Position numbers and translations under genes: made by a program
The notes under the pieces: model-generated
What the model saw: the letters and a program-made list of their open reading frames with translations, nothing else
Database searches by the model: none
What the model was told of the DNA's origin: nothing
Assembly: GCF_900156805.1 (NCBI RefSeq)
Contig: NZ_FTOQ01000027.1
Span: forward strand, 1 to 33,981
From: Roseivivax lentus
GTDB taxonomy: Bacteria; Pseudomonadota; Alphaproteobacteria; Rhodobacterales; Rhodobacteraceae
DNA length: 33,981 nucleotides
Direction: 5' to 3'
Shown here: positions 20,208 to 33,981 of the stretch, piece after piece
How the letters are laid out: each line of letters starts with the position of its first letter
How positions within the stretch are numbered: position 1 is the stretch's first letter

Positions 20208-22157
<1,950 letters not shown>

Positions 22158-22551: not shown

Positions 22552-23280
22552 TCAATAATCACCCGCATTCAGCACGCAATACTTAAGGACAATGCTCTTC
22601 ACCGTGGCACTGTAGGCATCAAGAGAGATCCGGCGTCGCCGATACTTTGCACGTTTCACGTACCAGTCCTGCAGCAGCGGCTTGATTAGCGCGGGCAGAA
22701 GCTCTGAGGTTTCGGATCGAAACTGTCCCTTCGCTATTCCTTTTTTTATGATGTCCGCAAATAGCGCCTCGGTCAGCGCTTCGCTTTCGATAGCCAGGCG
22801 CCGCTCGGCCGGAGGGAAGCTCTTCGCCTCCATGAATGCGAAAACGAACCAAGCCAGCAAGTCCTCCGTCAGGCGAAGATGCGCGTCGATCATCCATTGC
22901 AAATGCGCGACGGCATCGTCGGTGATGCCTGGCGGCGGCGCTGTCAGCACGGTCTCCACCACATGCGTGACCTGCGCGAGGATCATCCTCAGCAGCGTCG
23001 TCTTGCTGTCGAAATACGCGTAAAGCCCGCCCGTCGACATGCCCGATTCCTCGGACAGGTCGCGCAGGGACATGGCCTGGAAGCCGCCCGAATTCGACAG
23101 ATCGAGCGCGGCCACGAGGATGCGTTTGAGGCGCGGCACGGCGATCGAGGGATTGCGCACCGAGATCGTGTCCTGATGCCGGGCCAGGATATCGCGGCAC
23201 ATGTCTTCCATGCTCAGAGCGAGCCTCTCCTGGGCCCCCTCAGCCACGGAGACATCGCTTCGGTATTTTAATTGCGCCAT
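22552..23280 (-). CDS. TetR-family repressor of the catabolic island
   Basis: A 242-residue regulator. The helix-turn-helix is clear (about residues 48-95: LVAALDLSNSGGFQAMSLRDL, then SEESGMSTGGLYAYFDSKTTLL). The helical ligand-binding domain follows. The N-terminal extension of about 40 residues before the DNA-binding domain is longer than usual. It is transcribed away from the SDR gene, with a palindrome in the 88-base gap, the usual layout of a self- and neighbour-regulating TetR. By context the inducer should be an acyl-CoA or hydroxyacyl-CoA of the pathway beside it; that is an inference. Confidence 0.9.
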   Translation of the reverse strand: MAQLKYRSDVSVAEGAQERLALSMEDMCRDILARHQDTISVRNPSIAVPRLKRILVAALDLSNSGGFQAMSLRDLSEESGMSTGGLYAYFDSKTTLLRMILAQVTHVVETVLTAPPPGITDDAVAHLQWMIDAHLRLTEDLLAWFVFAFMEAKSFPPAERRLAIESEALTEALFADIIKKGIAKGQFRSETSELLPALIKPLLQDWYVKRAKYRRRRISLDAYSATVKSIVLKYCVLNAGDY

Positions 23281-23339
23281 CCCGGGATTTCTCGACTTAA
23301 CGTTGCGGCAAGCTAAGTCCTACTATAAACATAAACGAA

Positions 23340-23349
23340 CGAACGTTCG
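23340..23349. promoter_or_regulatory. Palindromic TetR operator candidate
   Basis: CGAACGTTCG is a perfect 10-base palindrome, extended on the left by a second half-site (ACGAACGAACGTTCG, 23335-23349). It lies in the gap between the divergent TetR and SDR genes, about 20 bases before the SDR start. GAACGTTC-type centres are common in operators of TetR proteins that control acyl-CoA genes. Confidence 0.6.
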
Positions 23350-23368
23350 ATAGGTTGTATTGGGAGGT

Positions 23369-24145
23369 ATGGCTATCGTGGTTTCTTCGCCATTGGGGGA
23401 ATGGCCCGGCCTTGCGGATCGCACGGCCCTCGTGACCGGTGCCTCTTCCGGTCTCGGACGGCATTTCGCACGGCTTCTGGCAGCGCACGGCGTCGCAGTG
23501 ACGCTGGCCGCACGCCGCATCGACCGTATCCAGTCGCTCTGCGAGGACATCCGTAGCGAAGGCGGCACGGCCCATCCGCTTGAACTCGATGTGTCGGATC
23601 CCGCCTCCATTGCGGCGGGGCTTGGCGGCGAAGCCTTCGATATCGTCATCAACAATGCCGGGATCGCGGCGTCGGCCACGGCGCTCGATCATGACGACGA
23701 TACGCTCGACCGGATCATAGACACCAACCTCAAGGGCCCCTTCCGCGTCGCACGGACCGCCGCGCAGGCGATGATCGATGCGGGCAAAGGCGGCGTGATC
23801 GTCAATGTCGCCTCGATCGTTGGTGTGCGGGTGGCCAGCCATGTTTCGGCCTATGCGGCCTCGAAATCGGGACTGATCCAGATGACGCGCGCGCAGGCGC
23901 TGGAATGGGCGCGCCACGGCATCCGGGTGAATGCGCTTTGCCCCGGCTATATCGAAACGGAACTCAACTCCGATTTCTTCGCCTCCGAACCCGGTCAGAA
24001 GCTGATCCGGCGCGTGCCGCAGCGGCGGCTGGGTCAGGTCCGCGATCTCGACGGGCCGCTTCTCCTGCTGGTCTCGGATCTCGGCGGGTTCATGACCGGC
24101 AGCGAACTCGTGGTCGATGGCGGCCACCTCGTCACATCGATCTGA
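23369..24145 (+). CDS. Short-chain dehydrogenase/reductase
   Basis: A 258-residue NAD(P)-dependent oxidoreductase. The Rossmann signature TGASSGLG (23-30), NNAG (95-98), Asn120, Ser149 and the YxxxK pair Tyr162/Lys166 are all present, so it should be active. It closes VNALCPGYIETEL and GSELVVDGGHL as in typical SDRs. By context it would oxidise a 3-hydroxyacyl-CoA or a related alcohol (the LvaD-like position). The start is uncertain: ATG at 23369 sits only a base or so after GGGAGG, a TTG at 23360 is in frame, and GTG at 23378 has better spacing. It opens the plus-strand operon, 12 bases before the dehydrogenase gene. Confidence 0.9.
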   Translation: MAIVVSSPLGEWPGLADRTALVTGASSGLGRHFARLLAAHGVAVTLAARRIDRIQSLCEDIRSEGGTAHPLELDVSDPASIAAGLGGEAFDIVINNAGIAASATALDHDDDTLDRIIDTNLKGPFRVARTAAQAMIDAGKGGVIVNVASIVGVRVASHVSAYAASKSGLIQMTRAQALEWARHGIRVNALCPGYIETELNSDFFASEPGQKLIRRVPQRRLGQVRDLDGPLLLLVSDLGGFMTGSELVVDGGHLVTSI

Positions 24146-24157
24146 AGGACATACGAC

Positions 24158-25366
24158 ATGGATTTCACCATCCCGGCAGAGATCGAGGATTATCGCGCCC
24201 GCATCGCCACCTTCGTGGAAGAGCGTATCCTGCCGCAGGAAGAAGATCCCGCCGCATGGGACGCGCATGGCAACATCACGACCGAGCGGCTGAACGAGTT
24301 GCGCGCGGCCGCCAAGGCGGAAGGGCTCTGGTGCCTGCAGCTCAAGCCGGAAACCGGCGGTCAGGGGCTCGGCAAGGTCGGCATGGCGGTCTGTTACGAG
24401 GAGATGAACCGCTCCGTCTTCGGGCCTGTCGTGTTCAACTCCGCAGCGCCCGATGACGGCAACATGATGGTGCTCGAACAGGCGGGCACGCCCGAGCAGA
24501 AAGCGCGCTGGCTGGAGCCAATCGTGTCGGGTGCGGTGCGGTCGTCGTTTGCGATGACAGAGCCCCATCCGGGCGGCGGCTCGGATCCGGGGATGATGAT
24601 GACCAAGGCCGAGAAGACAGCCGACGGCTACGTCATTCGCGGCCATAAATGGTATATCACCGGGGCGGAGGACGCGGATCATTTCATCCTCATGGCGCGC
24701 ACCTCCGATGATCCGCGCCGCGGTCTGACGGCGTTCCTGCATGACAAATCCGATCCTGGCTGGCGGATCGACCGCCGCATCCCGATCATGGGCCCCGAGG
24801 AACATGGCGGGCATTGCGAGATCATCTATGACGAGCTGGTCCTGCCCGAGGACCGGGTGCTCTTGGGCGAAGGCCTTGGCCTGAAGGTCACGCAGATGCG
24901 GCTTGGCCCCGCGCGCCTGACCCATTGCATGCGGTGGCTGGGTCTGGCCAAGCGCTGCACCGAGATCGCGCGCGCCTATGCGGAGACGCGCGAGGGCTTC
25001 GGCGTCCGACTGGCCGACCGGGAAAGCATCCAGATCAAGCTGGGCGATCTGGCCATGGGGATCGAGATGGGCCGCCTTCTGGTCATGAAGGCCGCGTGGG
25101 AGCTCGATCAGGGCCGCTTTGCCAAGAAGGAGGTGTCGATGGCGAAGATCCACGTCGCGAACCTTCTGCACAAGGCCGCCGATGTGGGCATCCAGATCAA
25201 CGGCGCGCGCGGCTATTCCAAGGATACGGTTCTGGAATGGATCTACCGCTACGCGCGCCAGGCCCGGCTCGTCGATGGGGCGGACGAGGTGCACCAGATG
25301 GTGCTGAACCGCCATCTCGCCACCGAGGACCGGGATTTCTGGAAGTGGGACGCCGCGACCAACTGA
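24158..25366 (+). CDS. Acyl-CoA dehydrogenase, ACAD10/11-like
   Basis: A 402-residue FAD flavoenzyme of the acyl-CoA dehydrogenase family. The stretch SAAPDDGNMMVLEQAGTPEQKARWLEPIVSG (about 100-130) and SFAMTEPHPGGGSDP resemble ACAD10/11 rather than ordinary fatty-acid ACADs. KWYITGAEDADHFILMART is the FAD strand region. Near the C-terminus RLVDGADEVHQMVLNRHLA places Asp where medium-chain enzymes carry their catalytic Glu, as in the ACAD10/11 branch. In the P. putida lva pathway LvaC, of this type, works on 4-phosphoacyl-CoA. The gene lies between SDR and ligase in one operon; assignment to the ACAD10/11 branch is from motif reading. Confidence 0.9.
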   Translation: MDFTIPAEIEDYRARIATFVEERILPQEEDPAAWDAHGNITTERLNELRAAAKAEGLWCLQLKPETGGQGLGKVGMAVCYEEMNRSVFGPVVFNSAAPDDGNMMVLEQAGTPEQKARWLEPIVSGAVRSSFAMTEPHPGGGSDPGMMMTKAEKTADGYVIRGHKWYITGAEDADHFILMARTSDDPRRGLTAFLHDKSDPGWRIDRRIPIMGPEEHGGHCEIIYDELVLPEDRVLLGEGLGLKVTQMRLGPARLTHCMRWLGLAKRCTEIARAYAETREGFGVRLADRESIQIKLGDLAMGIEMGRLLVMKAAWELDQGRFAKKEVSMAKIHVANLLHKAADVGIQINGARGYSKDTVLEWIYRYARQARLVDGADEVHQMVLNRHLATEDRDFWKWDAATN

Positions 25367-25393
25367 GTGTCACGCAAGGAAGGGAGGCCACAC

Positions 25394-26974
25394 ATGTTCA
25401 CAGACCCGCATCTGGCGCCGCGTTCGGCGAATTTCCGGCCTCTGACACCGCTCGACCTTCTGGATCAGGCGCTTGAAGTGCATGGTGCCCGCCCGGCGGT
25501 CGCCTGGGGCGCGCATGTCTGGAGTTACGATGAATTCGGCGCGCTCGTGGCGCGTCTGGCCGGCCATCTGCGCGCGCAGGGCATCGGCGCCGGCGATGTC
25601 GTGTCGGTGATCGTCGGCAACCGGCCCGAGATGATCGCGGCCCATTTCGCGGTCCCGGCCCTGGGCGCGGTCCTGAACACGATCAACACCCGGCTCGGGC
25701 CGGACGACGTGGCCTACATTCTGGATCATGCGGGCAGCAAGACGCTTTTGTGCGAACGGGATCTGCGGCCCGATCTGGACCTCGACATCCCCGTGGACGT
25801 GCTGTGCAGCGCGCCGGGGGCAGGCGACGGGCTCGATCTGTTTGCGGGCGACGTGCCGCCGCTCGACCTGTCTGGGGCGGTCACGGACGAGGCCCAGCCC
25901 ATAAGCCTGAACTACACCTCGGGCACGACAGGTCGGCCGAAGGGCGTCGTCTATGCCCATCGCGGGGCCTATCTGAACGCCGTGGGCAATGTGCTGGCGC
26001 TGGGGTTCACCGCGGAGACGCGATATCTCTGGACGCTGCCGATGTTTCACTGCAACGGCTGGTGCCATGCCTGGGCGGTCACCGCCGCCGGGGGGATGCA
26101 TGTGTGCCTCGACCGGGTGGAGCCGGTGCTGATCCTCGACACGATTGCGGCCCACAGGGTCACGCATATGGCCTGCGCGCCGGTCGTCCTTTACATGCTT
26201 CTCGAACACGCGACCGAGCAACCGCCGGTGCGCGTGCGGGTGGCCACGGGAGGGGCCGCGCCCACGCCCGCACTTCTGGCGGGGCTGTCGAAGCTGGGTT
26301 TCGATCTGCACCATCTCTATGGGCTGACCGAAAGCTTCGGCCCGGCCACGATCAACGATCCGGGCGATTCCTCCGCCGATATCGAGACGCGCGCGGCGCT
26401 TATGGCCCGTCAGGGACGGCGGCATGTCACCGCCGGACGCGCGCGCGTCGTCGATGAGGCGGGACACGACGTGCCTGCCGACGGTGAGACGATGGGCGAG
26501 ATCGTGCTGGCCGGGAACACGGTCATGTCCGGCTATTACAGGAACGCCGAGGCCACGGAGGCCGCGTTCAAGGATGGCGTCTTCCATTCGGGTGATATCG
26601 CGGTGATGCATCCCGACGGCCAGATCGAGATCCGCGACCGGCTCAAGGACGTCATCATCACCGGCGGAGAGAACGTCTCGAGCCTGGAGATCGAAAAGAC
26701 GCTGCACAGCCATCCCGGCGTGCGCCTGGCTGCCGTCGTCGCAGCCCCGCATCCGAAATGGGGCGAAACGCCCTGGGCCTTCGTCGAGACGAAGGTCGCC
26801 GACAGCGTCACCGAAGAGACGCTCGAGCGGTTTTGCCGCGACCATCTGAGCGGATTCAAACGGCCCAAGCGCTTCATCTTCGGCGAGCTTCCCAAGACCG
26901 CGACCGGCAAGATCCAGAAATACAGGCTGCGCGAGGTCGCGCGCGACATGGCCAACCGCGAGGACGTAGCATGA
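25394..26974 (+). CDS. Acyl-CoA ligase (AMP-forming)
   Basis: A 526-residue adenylating enzyme that activates a carboxylic acid to its CoA thioester with ATP. The P-loop-like motif YTSGTTGRPKG (174-184), YGLTESFGP, GDIAVMHPDGQIEIRDRLKDVIITGGENVS and the terminal PKTATGKIQKYRLRE with the catalytic Lys are all intact. It is most like the medium-chain/methylthiopropionate-type ligases in length and motifs, but the substrate cannot be read. The ATG at 25394 has GGGAGG 6 bases upstream; an in-frame GTG at 25367 follows the previous stop directly. Its stop overlaps the next start (ATGA), so the kinase is coupled. Confidence 0.93.
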   Translation: MFTDPHLAPRSANFRPLTPLDLLDQALEVHGARPAVAWGAHVWSYDEFGALVARLAGHLRAQGIGAGDVVSVIVGNRPEMIAAHFAVPALGAVLNTINTRLGPDDVAYILDHAGSKTLLCERDLRPDLDLDIPVDVLCSAPGAGDGLDLFAGDVPPLDLSGAVTDEAQPISLNYTSGTTGRPKGVVYAHRGAYLNAVGNVLALGFTAETRYLWTLPMFHCNGWCHAWAVTAAGGMHVCLDRVEPVLILDTIAAHRVTHMACAPVVLYMLLEHATEQPPVRVRVATGGAAPTPALLAGLSKLGFDLHHLYGLTESFGPATINDPGDSSADIETRAALMARQGRRHVTAGRARVVDEAGHDVPADGETMGEIVLAGNTVMSGYYRNAEATEAAFKDGVFHSGDIAVMHPDGQIEIRDRLKDVIITGGENVSSLEIEKTLHSHPGVRLAAVVAAPHPKWGETPWAFVETKVADSVTEETLERFCRDHLSGFKRPKRFIFGELPKTATGKIQKYRLREVARDMANREDVA

Positions 26975-28029
26975 GCGGGACCGCCACCCGAGCCGCCGGG
27001 ACCGAGTTCGATCCCGATGCGCTGCGCGCCTGGCTGGCCGCGCGGGATGTGCGCGGAGAGAAGCTGTCGCTTGATCGGATCGGCGGAGGGCAATCGAACC
27101 CCACCTGGTTCGTGACCATCGGCGATCACCGGCTGGTGCTGCGCAAGAAACCCAGCGGGCCGATCCTGAAAGGCGCCCATGCGATCGAGCGGGAATTCCG
27201 CGTGCTGCGCGCTTTGCGCGACACCGATGTGCCGGTGCCCGAGGCGCTGTGGCTCGAAGAAGATCCCGACATTCTTGGCACGCCCTTCTACCTGATGAAC
27301 CGGCTCGAGGGCCGGGTGTTCGAGGATGCCGCCCTGCCCGGTGTCTCGCCCGAGGACCGGCGCGAGATGTATCTCGACATGGCGCGCACGCTGGCGCGGC
27401 TGCATGCGGTGCGGCCCGACGCGGTGGGCCTGGCCGATTATGGCCGTCCGGGCAATTATTTCGAGCGCCAGATCGGGCGTTGGACGAAGCAATACCATGC
27501 CTCGACCGGCCCGCGGATCGACGATCTTGACCGGCTGGTCGAATGGCTGCCTGACAATATGCCCGAAGACGATGGCGCCGTCTCCATCGCGCATGGCGAT
27601 TTCCGGGTCGGCAACCTGATGTGGCACCCGACCGAGCCGCGCGTCGTGGGCGTGCTCGATTGGGAGTTGTCGACGCTGGGGCACCCGCTCGCTGATCTGG
27701 GGTTCTGCATTCTGCCCTGGTACTCGGCGCCGGATGAATATGGCGGGCTGAAAGGCACGGATTGGCGCGGCGCGGGTATCCCCGAATGCATCGACTTCAT
27801 CGCGGAATACCACGCCCATGCCCGCCCGACCGCGCCGCTTCTGCCGTTTCATGTGGCCTTCGCCCTCTTCCGCTTTGCCGTGATCTTCGTAGGCATCGCG
27901 GACCGCGCGCGCAGCGGATCGGCGGCCTCTGCCGAGGCCGCGCAGCTTGGTCCCCTCGCAGAGCGTTTCGCGCGACGGGGCGTCGAGGTCATCCAGAACA
28001 AAAATACATGCATCGGGGAGATGGTATGA
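26971..28029 (+). CDS. APH-fold phosphotransferase (ACAD10/LvaA-like)
   Basis: A 352-residue kinase of the aminoglycoside phosphotransferase fold. GGGQSNPTW (38-46) is the nucleotide loop, the Lys in LVLRKKP (about 59) binds ATP, HGDFRVGN (208-215) holds the catalytic Asp and metal-binding Asn, and DWELS (230-234) is the DFG-equivalent. This subfamily is known from the N-terminal half of ACAD10/11 and from LvaA, which phosphorylates 4-hydroxyacyl-CoAs. Position between the ligase and a TRAP system supports a catabolic, not resistance, role. It overlaps the ligase stop (ATGA) and the next gene's start (ATGA). Confidence 0.92.
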   Translation: MSGTATRAAGTEFDPDALRAWLAARDVRGEKLSLDRIGGGQSNPTWFVTIGDHRLVLRKKPSGPILKGAHAIEREFRVLRALRDTDVPVPEALWLEEDPDILGTPFYLMNRLEGRVFEDAALPGVSPEDRREMYLDMARTLARLHAVRPDAVGLADYGRPGNYFERQIGRWTKQYHASTGPRIDDLDRLVEWLPDNMPEDDGAVSIAHGDFRVGNLMWHPTEPRVVGVLDWELSTLGHPLADLGFCILPWYSAPDEYGGLKGTDWRGAGIPECIDFIAEYHAHARPTAPLLPFHVAFALFRFAVIFVGIADRARSGSAASAEAAQLGPLAERFARRGVEVIQNKNTCIGEMV

Positions 28030-28556
28030 GGCTTCTGAAACTGTTCGACACCTTCAATGAAGGTCTGGGGAAGCTGGTCAGCTTCCTGATCTGGGCGGGC
28101 ATCGTCGTGCTGTGCTTCGAGGTCGTGGCCCGCTACGTCTTCCAGCAGCCGACGCTTTGGGCGCATGGCTACACCCAACGCATCTTCGGGGCCTATTTCG
28201 TGCTTGTGGGCGCCTATACGCTGCTGCGGCAGGACCATGTGCGGGTGGATCTGCTGCTCAATGTGGCGTCGCCGCGCTGGCGCGCCTTCCTCGATCTGCT
28301 GAATTTCGGGTTTCTGCTGCTCTGGGGCATCGTCCTGTCCTACGAGGCCTTCTGGTTCTTCGAGGACAGCTGGCGCTTCAACGAGGTCGATGACAGCGCG
28401 CTCAGGCATCCGATGTGGCCCGTAAAGCTGGCGATGTTCGTGGGCGTGGCCGCGATCACGCTGCAGGGCCTCGTGGAGGCGATCCGCTCGGTCATCCTGA
28501 TCGTCAATCCCGAGGCCGATACCGGCCGCAAGGATTACTCGGCGGGGGTGGTGTGA
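28026..28556 (+). CDS. TRAP transporter small membrane subunit (DctQ family)
   Basis: A 176-residue inner-membrane protein with four hydrophobic segments (about 15-35, 50-72, 88-108 and 135-158), matching the small subunit of TRAP importers. QPTLWAHGYTQRIFGAYFVLVGAYTLLRQDHVRVD is the conserved DctQ stretch. The ATG at 28026 overlaps the kinase stop (ATGA), and the stop overlaps the large subunit's ATG (TGATG), so the three genes are translated in line. It would pair with the large subunit to form the Na+-driven permease. Confidence 0.93.
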   Translation: MRLLKLFDTFNEGLGKLVSFLIWAGIVVLCFEVVARYVFQQPTLWAHGYTQRIFGAYFVLVGAYTLLRQDHVRVDLLLNVASPRWRAFLDLLNFGFLLLWGIVLSYEAFWFFEDSWRFNEVDDSALRHPMWPVKLAMFVGVAAITLQGLVEAIRSVILIVNPEADTGRKDYSAGVV

Positions 28557-29863
28557 TGAGCCCGGAACTTCTGACAATCGGCATGTTCAGCATGCTTCTG
28601 ATCTCGATCCTGCTGGGCGTGTCGCTGACCTTCGCGCTTGGCGGAACGGCGGTGGTCTTCGGCCTGCTGACCTTCGGTCTGAACGGGATGTTCACCATCG
28701 TCTCGACGATGTTCGGCTCGATGTGGTCGATCCTGCTGTCGGCGATCCCGCTTTTCGTCTTCATCGGCGTGGCGCTGGCACGGTCCAAGATCGCGGACGA
28801 CCTTTATCACGCGTTCTATTTGTGGTCGGGCCGCACGCCCGGCGGTCTTTTGATCGGCACGTCCGGCTTTGCCGCGACGCTGTCGGCGATGACCGGCAGC
28901 TGCGCGGCCTCCACGGTGACGACAGGTCTTGTCGGCATGCCCGCGATGAAGAAACGCGGCTATGACAAGCGCTTCATGCTGGGCACGATCGGTGCGTCCG
29001 GGACGCTTGGCATCCTCATTCCGCCGTCGATCACACTGATCCTGATCGCGCTGCAGACCGGCCAATCCGTCGGTCGACTGTTCCTGGGCGGTCTGATCGC
29101 GGGGCTTTTGCTGCTGGCGATGTTCATGACTTATGTGTTCCTAAAAAGCCGATTTTCGCCGCATCTGGCGCCGGGCTCGGATGAACTCGCGCCACTGAGC
29201 GAGCGGATCAGCTCGCTCCGCTCGGTGCTGTTGCCGCTTCTGGTGATCCTGTCGGTGCTGGTGTCGATCTTCGCAGGCATTGCGACACCGACCGAGGCGG
29301 CAGCCGTGGGCGCGGCGGCGGTCGTGCTGTCGGTGGCGATCCGGCGCGAATTGAACTGGACCTACATCAAGGCCGTCAGCCACGACACTGCCAGCCTGAC
29401 CGGCATGGTCATCTGGATCGTTTTCGGCGCCTCGGCCTTCGTCGCGGTCTATGGCGGCGGCGGCGGCACGCGCTTCATGCAGGGCTATCTGCTGGGCCTC
29501 GAGATCGAGCCCTGGATGATGATCCTGCTGATGCAGGTGATCACGCTGATCCTGGGCATGTTCCTCGATCCGGTCGGGATCATCCTGCTGGTGCTGCCGA
29601 TCTTCTTCCCGATCGTCGTGCAGCTTGGCTACGATCCGATCTGGTTCTGCATCCTGTTCCAGCTGAACCTGTGCATCGGCTATATCTCTCCGCCCTTCGG
29701 CTACAACCTCTTCTACCTGAAGTCGCTGAGCCCGGAGACCCCGATCTCCGAGATCTACCGGGCGATCATGCCGTTCCTGCTGCTGATGCTGGTGACCGGC
29801 GCCGTGCTGTTCCTGTTTCCGGAGCTTTTGACCAGCTTCACCGCCCTTCCCGACGGCCGCTGA
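28556..29863 (+). CDS. TRAP transporter large membrane subunit (DctM family)
   Basis: A 435-residue permease that drives uptake with the sodium gradient. It has about twelve hydrophobic segments from residue 8 on, with conserved DctM pieces: GGLLIGTSGFAATLSAMTGSC, GTIGASGTLGILIPPSITLILI and NLCIGYISPPFGYNLFYL. These correspond to the inverted-repeat hairpins that carry the Na+ sites. The start overlaps the small subunit's stop. Together with the DctQ and DctP proteins this is a complete TRAP system, so the island imports its own substrate. Confidence 0.95.
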   Translation: MSPELLTIGMFSMLLISILLGVSLTFALGGTAVVFGLLTFGLNGMFTIVSTMFGSMWSILLSAIPLFVFIGVALARSKIADDLYHAFYLWSGRTPGGLLIGTSGFAATLSAMTGSCAASTVTTGLVGMPAMKKRGYDKRFMLGTIGASGTLGILIPPSITLILIALQTGQSVGRLFLGGLIAGLLLLAMFMTYVFLKSRFSPHLAPGSDELAPLSERISSLRSVLLPLLVILSVLVSIFAGIATPTEAAAVGAAAVVLSVAIRRELNWTYIKAVSHDTASLTGMVIWIVFGASAFVAVYGGGGGTRFMQGYLLGLEIEPWMMILLMQVITLILGMFLDPVGIILLVLPIFFPIVVQLGYDPIWFCILFQLNLCIGYISPPFGYNLFYLKSLSPETPISEIYRAIMPFLLLMLVTGAVLFLFPELLTSFTALPDGR

Positions 29864-29904
29864 GGCCCGAGGAAGATCTGTCCAACCAAGGGAGAAGAAA
29901 GACC

Positions 29905-30957
29905 ATGACTGAGAACACCAAGAGCGTGTCGCGCCGGAATTTTCTGGCCGCATCCGCCGGGACCGCCGCGGGCCTGAGCCTGGCCGCGCCGCCGGCCATC
30001 GCGCAGGGCACCACCACCTGGCGCATGCAGACCCACTGGCCCACGGGCAACTGGTACTATGACGAAGTCTTCGTGCGCTACTGCAACCGCATCACGGAGG
30101 CCACCGGCGGCGAGCTGACCGTCGAGCCCTACGCGCCCGAGGCCATCGTGCCCACGGGCGAGGTGCTGAACGCCGTGCGTCGCGGCCTTCTGGAAAGCGC
30201 GTTCATCTATCCCGCCTACTGGATCGGGCGGATCCCGGCCGCAGGCCACCTGAACGGGCATATCGGCACTTGGCAGGGCCATGAGGAAATGGACATCTTC
30301 TATTTCGAAATGGGCGGCATCGACGTGATCCGCGAAGCCTATGCCGAACAGGGCGTGCACCAGGTCGGTCCCGTCTCCTATTCGGGCCTGACTCTGTGGG
30401 CCAACCGTCCGCTGCAAACGGTCGAGGATTTCTCGGGCTGGCCGGTGCGCTCCACCGGGGCGGCGGGCCTCGTTCTGGAAAAGATCGGCGCGGCGCCCGT
30501 GTCGATCCCCGGCGGCGAGCTTTATCAGGCGCTGCAAACCGGCGTTGTCGACGGCGCGCATTGGGGCGCCACGGCCACGGCCTGGGGCATGAACTTCCAG
30601 GAGGTCTGTACCCATATCATTGAGCCCGACCTTGTCGGTCATCTGAACGGTGAGGTGATGGTGGGCCTCGATGCCTGGAACTCCATCGGCACCGAGCTGC
30701 AGGCGGTCGTCAACGAAGTGACCCGCGCCACCTCTGCCGAGGCGGCGGCGCACTTCCTCTATCGCGATTACCTCTACAAGCAGGAATTCGTGAACAACAT
30801 GGGCGGCACGCTCACGCAGATGGACGACGACACGGTGCGCGCGCTGCGGACCGCCTCGCTCGAGGTCGTCGACGACTTCTCGGCGCAGGATCCGGAATAT
30901 TCCGGTCGCCTGGGCGAGATGCTGCGCGAATTCCTGACCATGACCGGCCGGATCTGA
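29905..30957 (+). CDS. TRAP solute-binding protein (DctP family), Tat-exported
   Basis: A 350-residue periplasmic binding protein. The N-terminus has a twin-arginine signal (SRRNFLAASAGTAAGLSLAAP, cleavage after Ala-Ile-Ala near residue 33). The mature domain begins TTWRMQTHWPTG and has the family piece LQTGVVDGAHWGATATAW with the ligand-contact region. The sequence is of the dimeric TakP/DctP-7 style in that Trp and His recur in the ligand lobe, but substrate prediction is unsafe. GGGAGAAG precedes ATG by about 8 bases. A strong hairpin follows its stop. Confidence 0.93.
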   Translation: MTENTKSVSRRNFLAASAGTAAGLSLAAPPAIAQGTTTWRMQTHWPTGNWYYDEVFVRYCNRITEATGGELTVEPYAPEAIVPTGEVLNAVRRGLLESAFIYPAYWIGRIPAAGHLNGHIGTWQGHEEMDIFYFEMGGIDVIREAYAEQGVHQVGPVSYSGLTLWANRPLQTVEDFSGWPVRSTGAAGLVLEKIGAAPVSIPGGELYQALQTGVVDGAHWGATATAWGMNFQEVCTHIIEPDLVGHLNGEVMVGLDAWNSIGTELQAVVNEVTRATSAEAAAHFLYRDYLYKQEFVNNMGGTLTQMDDDTVRALRTASLEVVDDFSAQDPEYSGRLGEMLREFLTMTGRI

Positions 30958-30978
30958 TCCGTCCGCCGCACGACACTC

Positions 30979-31010
30979 CGGAGGGCACCACGGTGCCCTC
31001 CGCCAGTTTT
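30979..31010 (+). terminator. Strong hairpin after the TRAP binding-protein gene
   Basis: CGGAGGGCACC and GGTGCCCTCCG form a perfect 11-bp stem with a 2-base loop (30979-31002), followed by CCAG and four T. It would end or reduce transcription before the quinone oxidoreductase gene, or protect the upstream mRNA 3' end. The T-run is short, so read-through is likely. Confidence 0.75.
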
Positions 31011-31036
31011 GACACCGCCAGACAAAAGAGGCCGCA

Positions 31037-32026
31037 ATGAGCTTGCCCAGCACCATGACCGTCGTCGAAATCTCCGAATATGGCGGGCCCGACGTGCTGA
31101 AGCCCGCAACCGCGCCGGTGCCGCGCCCGGGCGAGGGACAGATCCTCATCAAGATCGACCATGCCGGGGTGAACCGCCCCGACGCGCTGCAGCGCGCGGG
31201 AAATTACGCGCCGCCCCCCGATGCCTCGCCGCTGCCGGGGCTGGAGGCTGCGGGCCATGTGGCCGCCGTCGGCGCAGGCGTCTCGCGCTGGTCCGAGGGC
31301 GACGCGGTCACGGCTCTTCTGCCGGGAGGCGGCTACGCGGAATACGCCGTCACCGATGCGCGCCAGGCCCTGCCCGTGCCCAAGGGTATGAGCTTTGAGG
31401 CCGCCGCAGGGCTGTGCGAGAACTACTTCACCGTCTGGACCAACGTCTTCATGCGCGGCGGCCTCAAGGCCGGTGAGCGGTTCCTGGCCCATGGGGGATC
31501 TTCCGGGATCGGCACGACCGCGATCCAGCTGGCCAAGCTGCACGGTGCCCGTGTCTTCGCCACGGCCGGCACAGCCGAGAAATGCGCGGTCTGTGAAAAA
31601 CTCGGGGCCGAGGCCGCGATCAATTACCGCGAAGCGGATTTTGTTGAAGCCATGAAGGCAGAAGGCGGGGCCGACCTGATCCTCGACATGGTGGGCGGCG
31701 AATACATCGCGCGCAATCTCACGGCGCTTGCCATGGACGGGCGGCTTGTCCAGATCGCGTATCTGCAGGGCTCCAAGGTCGAGATCGACCTGATGCAGGT
31801 CATGACCCGGCGGCTGACCTTCACCGGCTCCACCCTGCGTCCGCAATCGCTGGACGCGAAGGCCGAGATCGCCGCCGCGCTCGAAGCCGAAGTCTGGCCG
31901 CATCTTGAAAGCGGCGCCATCGGTCCCGTGTATGACAGCACCTTCCCGCTCGAGGAGGCAGCCCAGGCGCATGCGCGCATGGAAAGCTCGGCCAATATCG
32001 GCAAGATCATCCTGAAGGTGGCCTGA
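31037..32026 (+). CDS. NAD(P)H:quinone oxidoreductase-like (MDR family, zinc-free)
   Basis: A 329-residue medium-chain dehydrogenase/reductase of the quinone-oxidoreductase type. It starts MTVVEISEYGGPDVLKPATAPVPRPG, has GVNRPDALQRAGNYAPPPDASPLPGLEAAG, and the nucleotide-binding HGGSSGIGTTAIQLAKLHGARVFATAGT (about 152-180). No catalytic zinc Cys set is present. It is similar to the PIG3/TP53I3-like branch. An AGAGG site precedes the ATG. The hydrolase gene begins 3 bases after its stop, so those two are a pair. Its part in the pathway is not clear: reduction of an enoyl or quinone group is possible. Confidence 0.9.
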   Translation: MSLPSTMTVVEISEYGGPDVLKPATAPVPRPGEGQILIKIDHAGVNRPDALQRAGNYAPPPDASPLPGLEAAGHVAAVGAGVSRWSEGDAVTALLPGGGYAEYAVTDARQALPVPKGMSFEAAAGLCENYFTVWTNVFMRGGLKAGERFLAHGGSSGIGTTAIQLAKLHGARVFATAGTAEKCAVCEKLGAEAAINYREADFVEAMKAEGGADLILDMVGGEYIARNLTALAMDGRLVQIAYLQGSKVEIDLMQVMTRRLTFTGSTLRPQSLDAKAEIAAALEAEVWPHLESGAIGPVYDSTFPLEEAAQAHARMESSANIGKIILKVA

Positions 32027-32029
32027 GCG

Positions 32030-32989
32030 ATGGCGCCCCGCCCCGAATGGCAGAGCGCGGATCGCTCGATCCGGCACAGCTTCGCCTCGTACACCGAGTC
32101 GGGCCTCTCGCTGACCCTGCGACAGCGCGGCGAGGGCCCGCCGGTGCTGTTCGTGCATGGCGCGACCTTCTCGGGGCGCATCTTCGACATCCCGCACGAG
32201 GACCTGAACTGGCTGCAGGTCATGGCCGATGCGGGCTATAGCGCCTATGCGCTCGATTTGCGCGGTTACGGCCTGTCGAAGCCCACGGCCTTTCCAGAAG
32301 AGGGAGTCTATGCCTCGGGCGCGCAGGCCATCGCCGATATCGGCGATGCGGTCGACTGGATCATGGCACGGCATGACGGGGCCCGCGTGGCGCTGGTGGG
32401 CTGGTCCTGGGGCACGCTGACCACGTCTCGCTACGTCATGGCCGACGGACGCGACAAGATCCGCAGCCTGTGTCTTTACGCCCCGATCTACGCGGAGAGG
32501 AATGCGGGCTGGATCGACATGCTGGCCGATCCGGCAGACCGGTCCCGCCTGCGCCCGCTTGGGCCTTACCGCCGGGTGAACCTGTCCGACACGCGGATCC
32601 GCTGGGATGAACAGATCCCCAACGGGGCCGATTGGCGCAGCGAGGCGGCGCTTCTGGCGCTGGTTGAGTCCTCCTGTGCGGATGACGGCGCGGAGGGTGA
32701 CACCGATCCGCCCAGCTTCCGCGTGCCGAACGGAACTTTCGTGGAACTGTGGGAGTGCTTCAACGGGCGCCCGATCCACGACCCTGCGGGCATCGCCTGT
32801 CCCACTATGCTGATCCGGGGATCGCAGGACACGACCTCGACCCGCAGCGACGCGCTGGCGCTCTTAGACCGGCTGACCTGCCTCGACAAGGATTACGTCG
32901 AGATCCACGGCGGCACGCATTTCATCAACGCCGAACGCCGCGCGCGTCCGGTCTTCGATGCAGTGACGAATTTCATCCGGCGCAGTTAA
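32030..32989 (+). CDS. Alpha/beta hydrolase
   Basis: A 319-residue hydrolase. The oxyanion loop is in FVHGATFSG (about 42-50), the nucleophile elbow is GWSWG (Ser near 125), an acid is likely in the LIRGSQDTTSTRSD region, and the His lies in IHGGTHFINAERR near the C-terminus. There is no signal peptide, so it acts in the cytoplasm. With an imported hydroxy acid as pathway substrate, a lactonase or esterase job at the entry is plausible but not shown. It ends the island, and the next 400 bases carry no gene. Confidence 0.88.
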   Translation: MAPRPEWQSADRSIRHSFASYTESGLSLTLRQRGEGPPVLFVHGATFSGRIFDIPHEDLNWLQVMADAGYSAYALDLRGYGLSKPTAFPEEGVYASGAQAIADIGDAVDWIMARHDGARVALVGWSWGTLTTSRYVMADGRDKIRSLCLYAPIYAERNAGWIDMLADPADRSRLRPLGPYRRVNLSDTRIRWDEQIPNGADWRSEAALLALVESSCADDGAEGDTDPPSFRVPNGTFVELWECFNGRPIHDPAGIACPTMLIRGSQDTTSTRSDALALLDRLTCLDKDYVEIHGGTHFINAERRARPVFDAVTNFIRRS

Positions 32990-33399: not shown

Positions 33400-33592
33400 T
33401 GGTCTGCCCCCATCGAGTGGTCCGGTTTGATTGTTAGTGCATGGTCGGCCTCTGGTCTATCGGCACGATGCTTTCTGGTGCGGGTGGACGGTATCCCAGA
33501 GAGCTATGGGGTTTGACAGTGTTGTAGTGGCGACGCCATCTCTCGATCAGGATCTGGGCTTCGCGTAGCGAGTAGAAGACCTCGCCGTTCAG
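33400..33592 (-). mobile_element. IS3-family remnant (end and OrfB C-terminus)
   Basis: Minus-strand codons 33592-33434 encode LNGEVFYSLREAQILIERW, RRHYNTVKPHSSLGYRPPAPE and a short tail ending TMH-stop. This is the very recognisable C-terminus of an IS3-family OrfB (DDE) transposase. The end sequence TGGTCTGCCCC at 33400 resembles the one at 18676. The coding sequence breaks just before LNGEV, where the IS110-type sequence begins, so only the last about 50 codons remain. Confidence 0.85.
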
Positions 33593-33981
33593 ATGGCGTA
33601 ATCGGGGCTCAGTCCCCGGGTTCGCCGGTAGTCTTCTTGCCGGTAAGTCCATGACCGGGAGAACGACCATGACGAGAGTATTGTATGCGGGCCTCGACGT
33701 CTCACTGGAGATGACCAGCATCTGCGTTGTCGATGCCCAGGGCGGAATGATCCTTGAGGCAAAGGCGGTTTCGGACCCTGTCGACATCGGCGATGTGCTG
33801 GCTGGTATCGACGGCACCTTCGAGCGAGTTGGTTTCGAAGCCGGGCCTTTGTCGCAGTGGCTTTACAATGGCCTCACGAGCGCGGGCTTGCCCGCCGTCT
33901 GCATTGAAGCGCGACATGCCAAGGCTGCGATGGTGGCCATGAACCGCAACAAGAATGACCGCAACGACGCTCGATCTCTGG
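33593..33981 (+). mobile_element. Left part of an IS110-family element
   Basis: About 75 non-coding bases (with the small hairpin CGGGG/CCCCG near 33604-33618) precede the transposase start at 33669. The element interrupts the IS3-family remnant and continues past the window edge. The exact left end is uncertain by a few bases. Confidence 0.7.
33669..33981 (+). CDS. IS110-family transposase, N-terminal part
   Basis: The first 104 codons of a DEDD (RuvC-like) transposase; the gene runs off the window. GLDVSLEMTSICVVD holds the first Asp, GFEAGPLSQWLYNGL the Glu, and KNDRNDARSL the paired Asp, all at the usual spacing of the IS110/IS1111 family. The ATG at 33669 follows GGGAG by 7 bases. Enzymes of this family are guided by a bridge RNA coded in the element's non-coding end. 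The short left end here suggests that the RNA, if present, lies downstream, as in the IS1111 branch. Confidence 0.92.
   Translation, partial: MTRVLYAGLDVSLEMTSICVVDAQGGMILEAKAVSDPVDIGDVLAGIDGTFERVGFEAGPLSQWLYNGLTSAGLPAVCIEARHAKAAMVAMNRNKNDRNDARSL

Follow-up and report, generated by a model that had tools for sequence, protein, structure and literature searches.

The 33,981-nucleotide contig NZ_FTOQ01000027.1 of Roseivivax lentus, which in its full length is called the window here, carries at positions 22552 to 32989 a TetR-controlled ten-gene island that probably serves the catabolism of a monocarboxylic acid with a 4-oxo or 4-hydroxy group, or of a precursor hydrolysed to such an acid, through a 4-phospho intermediate, with its own tripartite ATP-independent periplasmic (TRAP) importer. 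The catabolic genes encode a short-chain dehydrogenase/reductase (SDR), an acyl-CoA dehydrogenase (ACAD), an AMP-forming ligase and a kinase of the aminoglycoside phosphotransferase (APH) fold. A reading made from the DNA alone (the sequence-only reading) had likened the island to the lva operon for levulinate degradation in P. putida. The logic of an lva-like 4-hydroxyacyl-CoA pathway, the separate importer and the different regulator held up in our analysis, whereas the LvaA-type kinase (28% identity; the window kinase is of the ACAD10/11 type) and the LvaC-clade ACAD (the window ACAD falls in a third clade) did not.

As the lva reference, we used locus L107 on the P. aeruginosa plasmid p12939-PER, which was found by an ACAD search of plasmid records. 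All ten genes of the island are real, and coordinates and family matches confirmed the gene set, order and strands, including the divergent tetR, as first described:

22552-23280, minus strand: TetR-family regulator, divergent from the operon (PF00440, 43 bits; TetR_C_24, 31 bits)
23369-24145, plus strand: LvaD-like SDR, putative 4-oxoacyl-CoA reductase (53% identity to LvaD of L107)
24158-25366, plus strand: ACAD of the phospho-acyl-CoA type, third clade (residues R248, H256, R259 and D373)
25394-26974, plus strand: AMP-forming acyl-CoA ligase (alternative start GTG at 25367; PF00501, 250 bits)
26971-28029, plus strand: APH-fold kinase of the ACAD10/11 type (D210, N215 and D230; 46% identity to 3dxp)
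28026-28556, plus strand: TRAP small permease DctQ (PF04290, 80 bits)
28556-29863, plus strand: TRAP large permease DctM (PF06808, 253 bits; TIGR00786, over the cut-off)
29905-30957, plus strand: TRAP solute-binding protein DctP (nearest solved structure, lactate-binding TTHA0766)
31037-32026, plus strand: PIG3-type NAD(P)H:quinone oxidoreductase of the medium-chain dehydrogenase/reductase (MDR) type (TIGR02824, 464 bits, over the cut-off; 4dup, 338 bits)
32030-32989, plus strand: alpha/beta hydrolase (PF00561, 66 bits)

The ACAD belongs to a third clade and keeps the phospho-substrate residues

The window ACAD was placed in a 37-row tree with ordinary ACADs as the outgroup; 17 of the 95 rows of its own clade were included, and L127 and L152, which have long branches, were omitted along with 2wbi. 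The tree had three clades, namely LvaC (support 99/92), ACAD10/11 (100/100) and clade C (97/99), which includes the window, so that the window ACAD lies outside both the LvaC and the ACAD10/11 clades. Clade C sits on a long stem, and its named members are nearly all Alphaproteobacteria. Its 95 rows hold 90 distinct sequences, some rows being near-copies. The window ACAD is 43% identical to LvaC and 35% identical to ACAD11. As for the sister order of the clades, a grouping of clade C with LvaC was not rejected (P value of the approximately unbiased test [p-AU] of 0.477), clade C with ACAD11 had a support of 80/23, and LvaC with ACAD11 gave a P value of 0.131. The ACAD of L127 (Haloferax) shifted between trees, to the ACAD11 side in one and to the LvaC side in another. 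Between LvaC (p12939-PER) and ACAD11, we computed an identity of 34%; the available text of PMC11342911 prints 62% and 56% for ACAD10/11 to LvaC, values which may refer to other sequences or to similarity.

The available text of PMC12440821 ties R626, H634, R637 and D753 of ACAD11 to catalysis and 4-phosphoacyl-CoA recognition. The counterparts in the window are R248, H256, R259 and D373. These four residues are kept in all 95 clade-C rows, 6 of 6 LvaC, 12 of 12 ACAD11-type and 1 of 1 haloarchaeal sequences, and each is absent from all four ordinary ACADs. The window ACAD thus has the catalytic Asp and the R/H/R cluster of the ACADs that handle phospho-acyl-CoA (LvaC, ACAD10/11 and clade C). 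Window P98 (in CQAPD; human position 471) is a proline in 95/95 clade-C, 6/6 LvaC and 12/12 ACAD11-type sequences and in 0/4 ordinary ACADs; the available text of PMC12440821 and PMC11342911 does not name it. On the proposed route, the window ACAD would eliminate phosphate from a 4-phosphoacyl-CoA without an electron acceptor.

The kinase is of the ACAD10/11 type, and no LvaB is detected in the genome

The window kinase is 46% identical to 3dxp, 45% to the kinase of a second gene set on contig C41 of the same genome, 39% to the mouse ACAD11 kinase and 28% to LvaA. A 46-row kinase tree put seven LvaA-type kinases on one side (support 100/100) and the ACAD11-type kinases, including mouse ACAD11, 3dxp and the C41 kinase, on the other, where the window kinase has its own 21-row clade (96/96). 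By this clade and by its catalytic residues (D210, N215, D230, R58 and E75 are present), the window kinase is of the ACAD10/11 type; the low identity and the tree split place it apart from the LvaA-type kinase of the lva operon. Both kinase and ACAD therefore group away from LvaA and LvaC, which, taken literally, is the outcome that the sequence-only reading had itself set as speaking against it. Two findings keep the proposed 4-phospho function tenable: the kinase clusters with the other family for which this reaction has been shown, and the four ACAD residues are kept.

We took DUF6285 as LvaB, which is backed by the gene name lvaB in the L107 record and the PF19802 match of its product. An LvaB profile matched in 7 of the 102 loci scanned, and these are precisely the 7 loci with LvaA-type kinases. 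None of the 77 loci whose ACAD11-type kinase lies within 6 kb gave a match (3 of these loci have fewer than 400 bases after the kinase), nor did any of the 18 loci without a nearby kinase. The same 7 loci were matched by the trimmed profile and by a version that included overlong rows. No credible LvaB (DUF6285) was detected in the R. lentus genome, with no PF19802 match at an E value of 0.01 and a best E value of 0.2 for the LvaB protein; the sequence-only reading had already remarked on the missing LvaB partner. LvaB is missing from the window because an ACAD10/11-type kinase stands in place of LvaA and LvaB, and the window kinase is apparently LvaB-independent. According to the available text of PMC6692424, which cites Rand et al. 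(2017), growth of P. putida on levulinate requires lvaB, and LvaB binds LvaA. A purified Burkholderia ACAD10-type kinase was active in vitro in PMC11342911, the available text of which makes no mention of LvaB.

A histidine phosphatase gene lies beside LvaA+LvaB sets in Azospirillum (L105:11647-12360), Thermus (L108:8475-9128) and Stutzerimonas (L128:6243-7004), and such a gene also neighbours ACAD11-type kinases in some loci (Deinococcus, L146; Streptomyces, L149). The phosphatase may clear phospho intermediates.

Kinase modules differ among clade-C loci

Within 6 kb of the ACAD, 74 of the 95 clade-C loci have an ACAD11-type kinase, 4 have LvaA+LvaB (Methylobacterium soli, M. planeticum, Azospirillum and Paracoccus aestuarii), and the remaining 17 lack a kinase at that distance in the stretch covered. 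The genomes of 11 of these 17 were searched, and all 11 hold, further away, a kinase 42 to 57% identical to that of the window. Eight of these distant kinases were placed in the kinase tree, all on the ACAD11-type side. The LvaC clade is also mixed, with LvaA in L107, L108 and L128 and an ACAD11-type kinase in L106 and L125.

On a tree with no outside root, from which L103 was omitted as a near-copy, parsimony gave a minimum of two kinase-type changes inside clade C. A tree constrained to unite the four LvaA-type rows in a single clade was not rejected (p-AU 0.163), so that a single exchange event is compatible with the data despite the parsimony count of two. With LvaA+LvaB at 4 clade-C loci and the ACAD11-type kinase at 74, there has been at least one exchange of kinase modules in this clade. 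The loci offer a natural test of the role of LvaB: ACADs 64 to 75% identical to that of the window accompany LvaA+LvaB in Methylobacterium, Azospirillum and Paracoccus, whereas the window ACAD accompanies a single-chain kinase.

Comparison with the lva reference locus

The L107 locus contains a sigma54 PrpR-like regulator, a phosphotransferase, lvaB (annotated as a 4-hydroxypentanoyl-CoA kinase subunit), an ACAD, an SDR, a ligase, a DUF485 protein and a cation acetate symporter. Identities between window and L107 proteins were 53% for the SDR and LvaD, 48% for the ligase and LvaE, 43% for the ACAD and LvaC, and 28% for the kinase and LvaA. When the R. lentus genome was searched with LvaD, the window SDR was the top match (53%) and the next reached 38%, which marks the SDR as LvaD-type. 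The same search with LvaA returned the window kinase at the top, at only 29%. In place of the sigma54 LvaR and the DUF485 plus sodium:solute symporter (SSF) importer of the lva operon, the window has TetR and TRAP, and the difference in regulator is as the sequence-only reading had it.

The TRAP importer and the hydrolase

DctP, DctQ and DctM are present together and all exceed their cut-offs, making the importer the full TRAP system that had been proposed. The nearest solved relative of DctP is the lactate-binding TTHA0766 (2zzv; 178 bits with the family profile), and all 16 orthologs aligned share R182 and H219 of DctP. Two routes to the substrate were tried and rejected. The structure model of DctP was poor (predicted local distance difference test score [pLDDT] of 60), and the sequence yields a lactate/keto-acid class only. 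The neighbours of five annotated clade-C plasmid loci, which include phenylacetate genes, a polyamine-type ABC system, fatty-acid genes, tyrosine breakdown and aldehyde oxidase, had no common theme. The ligand of DctP would name a 4-hydroxy or 4-oxo acid used by marine bacteria.

In the alpha/beta hydrolase, S126 (in GWSWG) and H297 are invariant in 11 of 11 aligned sequences. The model of the hydrolase had a pLDDT of 83, and the 50 Foldseek matches listed were generic alpha/beta hydrolases at 13 to 21% identity, none of them close (haloperoxidases, esterases, epoxide hydrolases, lipases and one gamma-lactamase). These matches speak neither for nor against the lactonase role that the sequence-only reading had raised as a possibility.

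Operon structure and borders of the island

The gaps between genes are 12 bases (SDR-ACAD), 27 (ACAD-ligase), -4 (ligase-kinase), -4 (kinase-DctQ), -1 (DctQ-DctM), 41 (DctM-DctP), 79 (DctP-MDR) and 3 (MDR-hydrolase). Since the gaps from the SDR through DctP are short or overlapping, the TRAP genes read as members of the same tight operon as the catabolic genes. The sequence-only reading had an operon followed by an importer; by the gaps at the importer (-4, -1 and 41), the two are better taken as a single operon.

The wide gap after dctP (30958-31036) holds one further feature:

30980-31001, plus strand: hairpin with a 9-bp stem

The gap folds with a minimum free energy of -28.7 (z = -2.36), and 2 of 200 shuffles, made for the window gap only, were equally low. 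A strong hairpin lies at a constant place, with varying sequence, in all 14 other dctP-mdr gaps folded, as judged by inspecting the predicted folds by eye. The hairpin may set off the MDR and hydrolase genes or stabilise the DctP message.

Just past the island, positions 33434 to 33981 contain an apparent transposase gene, identified by eye (its reading frame is open from 33651), and fragments at the end of the window, and the right border of the island may be a mobile element. On the other side, groEL at 20533-22014 is frameshifted near 21858, its profile match being split over frames 20599-21858 and 21858-22106; the break may mark a genuine pseudogene or stem from an error in sequencing. A second groEL copy in the genome is unbroken (G000:C45:246112-247623).

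A putative TetR operator recurs between tetR and the SDR gene

The gap between tetR and the SDR gene contains a putative operator:

23336-23349, unstranded: putative TetR operator CGAACGAACGTTCG, a 6-2-6 palindrome that recurs in tetR-sdr gaps

We scanned the tetR-sdr gaps of 42 of the 95 clade-C loci, the window included (41 of the gaps are distinct). The core CGANCGNTCG was exact in 33 of the 42 gaps, with one mismatch in 7 and two mismatches in 2. Shuffled gaps contained the core in a mean of 0.16 and a maximum of 2 cases (mononucleotide, 200 rounds) or a mean of 0.44 and a maximum of 4 of 42 (dinucleotide, 100 rounds). The 14-mer CGARCGNNCGYTCG was exact in 24 of the 42 gaps, compared with a shuffle mean of 0.01. 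The palindrome is unremarkable in the window alone, and the claim rests on its recurrence across gaps. A search for a regulon with the 14-mer pattern gave 8 palindromic places in the R. lentus genome versus 4 for the reversed control, and no regulon is claimed.

Distribution of the island

The best named relative of the window ACAD is that of Roseivivax halotolerans (97% identity), where the entire island recurs (L023) with 85 to 97% identity per gene. Of the 95 clade-C loci, 72 had enough flank; 16 of these, including the window, have DctM and DctP adjoining the core. These 16 TRAP-bearing loci include the ligase in 15, the MDR in 14 and the hydrolase in 11. The recurrence of the island in R. 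halotolerans and in the TRAP-bearing relatives argues that the gene grouping is not chance. Smaller sets include, for example, the SDR and kinase only (13 loci), TetR, SDR and kinase (11), the kinase only (7) or none of these (3). Clade-C ACADs are not rare, being found at an E value of 1e-100 or below in 27 of the 198 searched genomes of the family of R. lentus, its own genome included.

The second set in the R. lentus genome (L021, G000:C41:141403-145466) has its genes side by side in one orientation, next to a thioesterase-like gene. Locus extraction gave no ACAD for L021 and L022, and the distant ACAD of L021 was added by hand as C41acad. In the contig of L056, which is labelled Enemella evansiae (Actinomycetota), the ACAD is identical to that of L120, a genome of the R. 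lentus family; the label is doubtful, and the contig is probably mislabelled or contaminated.

Open-access literature searches gave, among the matches listed, no paper describing a TRAP-linked or Rhodobacterales version of the pathway. According to the available text of PMC6692424, Rand et al. (2017) are said to have remarked that Alphaproteobacteria contain homologues of lvaABCD.

DISCUSSION

We infer the following route. The TRAP system would import the acid, and the ligase would convert it to its acyl-CoA. Where a 4-oxo group is present, the LvaD-like SDR would reduce the 4-oxoacyl-CoA to the 4-hydroxyacyl-CoA. The single-chain ACAD10/11-type kinase would then phosphorylate the 4-hydroxyl, and the ACAD, using FAD without net oxidation, would expel the phosphate to give a 2-enoyl-CoA that enters ordinary beta-oxidation. 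TetR would act as a repressor whose release from the palindrome at 23336-23349 is probably triggered by the acid or by the corresponding CoA ester.

Several observations weigh against this route. The MDR and the hydrolase are unexplained by it, and no biochemical or growth data for clade members were found in the literature searches made. The ligase, SDR or kinase is non-adjacent in many relatives, which makes the island a loose unit. The best match of LvaE in the R. lentus genome is another ligase (G000:C45:119520, 538 bits), which outscores the window ligase (489 bits), so the case for an LvaE-type window ligase is weak. A second set of an ACAD10/11-type kinase, an ACAD and an AMP ligase at C41 means that the island is not the sole such route in the genome. 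In the importer, H219 of DctP stands at the position of an Asp in TTHA0766 and a Glu in 4yzz. This Asp or Glu is the metal ligand in lactate and 2-oxoacid TRAP proteins; with His in its place, lactate-like binding cannot be assumed, and the DctP ligand may be of another class. Lastly, the proline named in the available text of PMC11342911 (human P463; window P90) fails to discriminate, since it is found in 95/95 clade-C, 6/6 LvaC, 7/12 ACAD11-type, 0/1 haloarchaeal and 1/4 ordinary ACAD sequences.

The island could alternatively be a true lva operon for levulinate, with orthologs of LvaA to LvaC, that has lost LvaB and changed its importer and regulator. The SDR is indeed the best LvaD match of the genome, the ligase is 48% identical to LvaE, and the ACAD is nearer to LvaC than to ACAD11 (43% versus 35%), with the grouping of clade C and LvaC not rejected. 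We nevertheless regard this explanation as unlikely: it is disfavoured already by the kinase tree, in which the window kinase (28% identical to LvaA) lies outside the LvaA clade (100/100), and the ACAD lies outside the LvaC clade (99/92) and LvaB was not found genome-wide. It is very unlikely that the island serves ordinary acid uptake and beta-oxidation, with an ACAD that oxidises normal acyl-CoAs and an unrelated APH protein. That view is consistent with the SDR, ACAD, ligase, TRAP and MDR genes being common catabolic genes that are not all adjacent in every relative, but it leaves unaccounted for the R/H/R cluster and a catalytic Asp rather than Glu in 95/95 clade rows, as well as the kinase that lies no more than 6 kb from the ACAD at 78 of the 95 loci and the related, more distant kinase (42 to 57% identity) in all 11 searched genomes of the other 17.

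For the 4-phospho route itself, the nature of the substrate has to be weighed. We give nearly even weight to a special case in which the same phospho-elimination acts not on levulinate but on 4-hydroxy acids that have a longer chain, a branch, a ring or some other substitution. The hydrolase would then open an ester or lactone, and an enone or enoyl intermediate would be reduced by the MDR; as this case lies within the general 4-phospho route, the probabilities of the two overlap. The third ACAD clade on its long stem, the joint presence of TRAP, MDR and hydrolase in 11 of the 16 TRAP-bearing loci, and the second ACAD11-type set already held by the genome all favour a substrate other than levulinate, whereas nothing points positively to such a substrate, the neighbours of the five clade-C plasmid loci being without a common theme. 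More tentatively, clade C may represent a third biochemical class of ACADs that eliminate phosphate, found in Alphaproteobacteria and acting on a non-levulinate substrate. Its kinase would be an exchangeable module, LvaA+LvaB in some species and the LvaB-free ACAD10/11 type in most, that was swapped more than once.

As proposed, the route operates along the lines of the lva and ACAD10/11 routes yet belongs to neither. With the lva operon of the P. putida KT2440 type, the island shares an SDR, an ACAD with the phospho-substrate residues, a ligase, an APH kinase and a dedicated importer. Unlike that operon, it has a non-LvaA kinase, no LvaB, a different gene order, an additional MDR and hydrolase, a TRAP system instead of the DUF485+SSF symporter and a TetR instead of the sigma54 PrpR-like regulator. 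We place it outside lva because the LvaA-type kinase, LvaB, the LvaC-clade ACAD, the lva regulator and the lva importer are all missing from it. An lva-like gene set that likewise has no lvaB is reported for P. citronellolis LA18T in the available text of PMC6692424; the LA18T set differs from the window in having an LvaA-type kinase (printed identity to LvaA, 59%), a histidine phosphatase, a regulator of the sigma54 type and an ActP symporter. DctP shares the monocarboxylate class with TTHA0766 and differs from it in having H219 for the aligned Asp.

With mammalian ACAD10 and ACAD11 and the bacterial pairs of this type, the island shares the kinase clade, the four ACAD active-site residues and the absence of LvaB. 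In contrast to ACAD10/ACAD11, the window kinase and ACAD are separate polypeptides, and the ACAD is 35% identical to ACAD11 and lies outside the ACAD10/11 clade (100/100), which is why we place the island outside that family too; the ACAD10/11 clade has a separate member in the R. lentus genome, at C41. Through mixed gene sets, the island ties levulinate degradation in bacteria to ACAD10 and ACAD11 of mammals.

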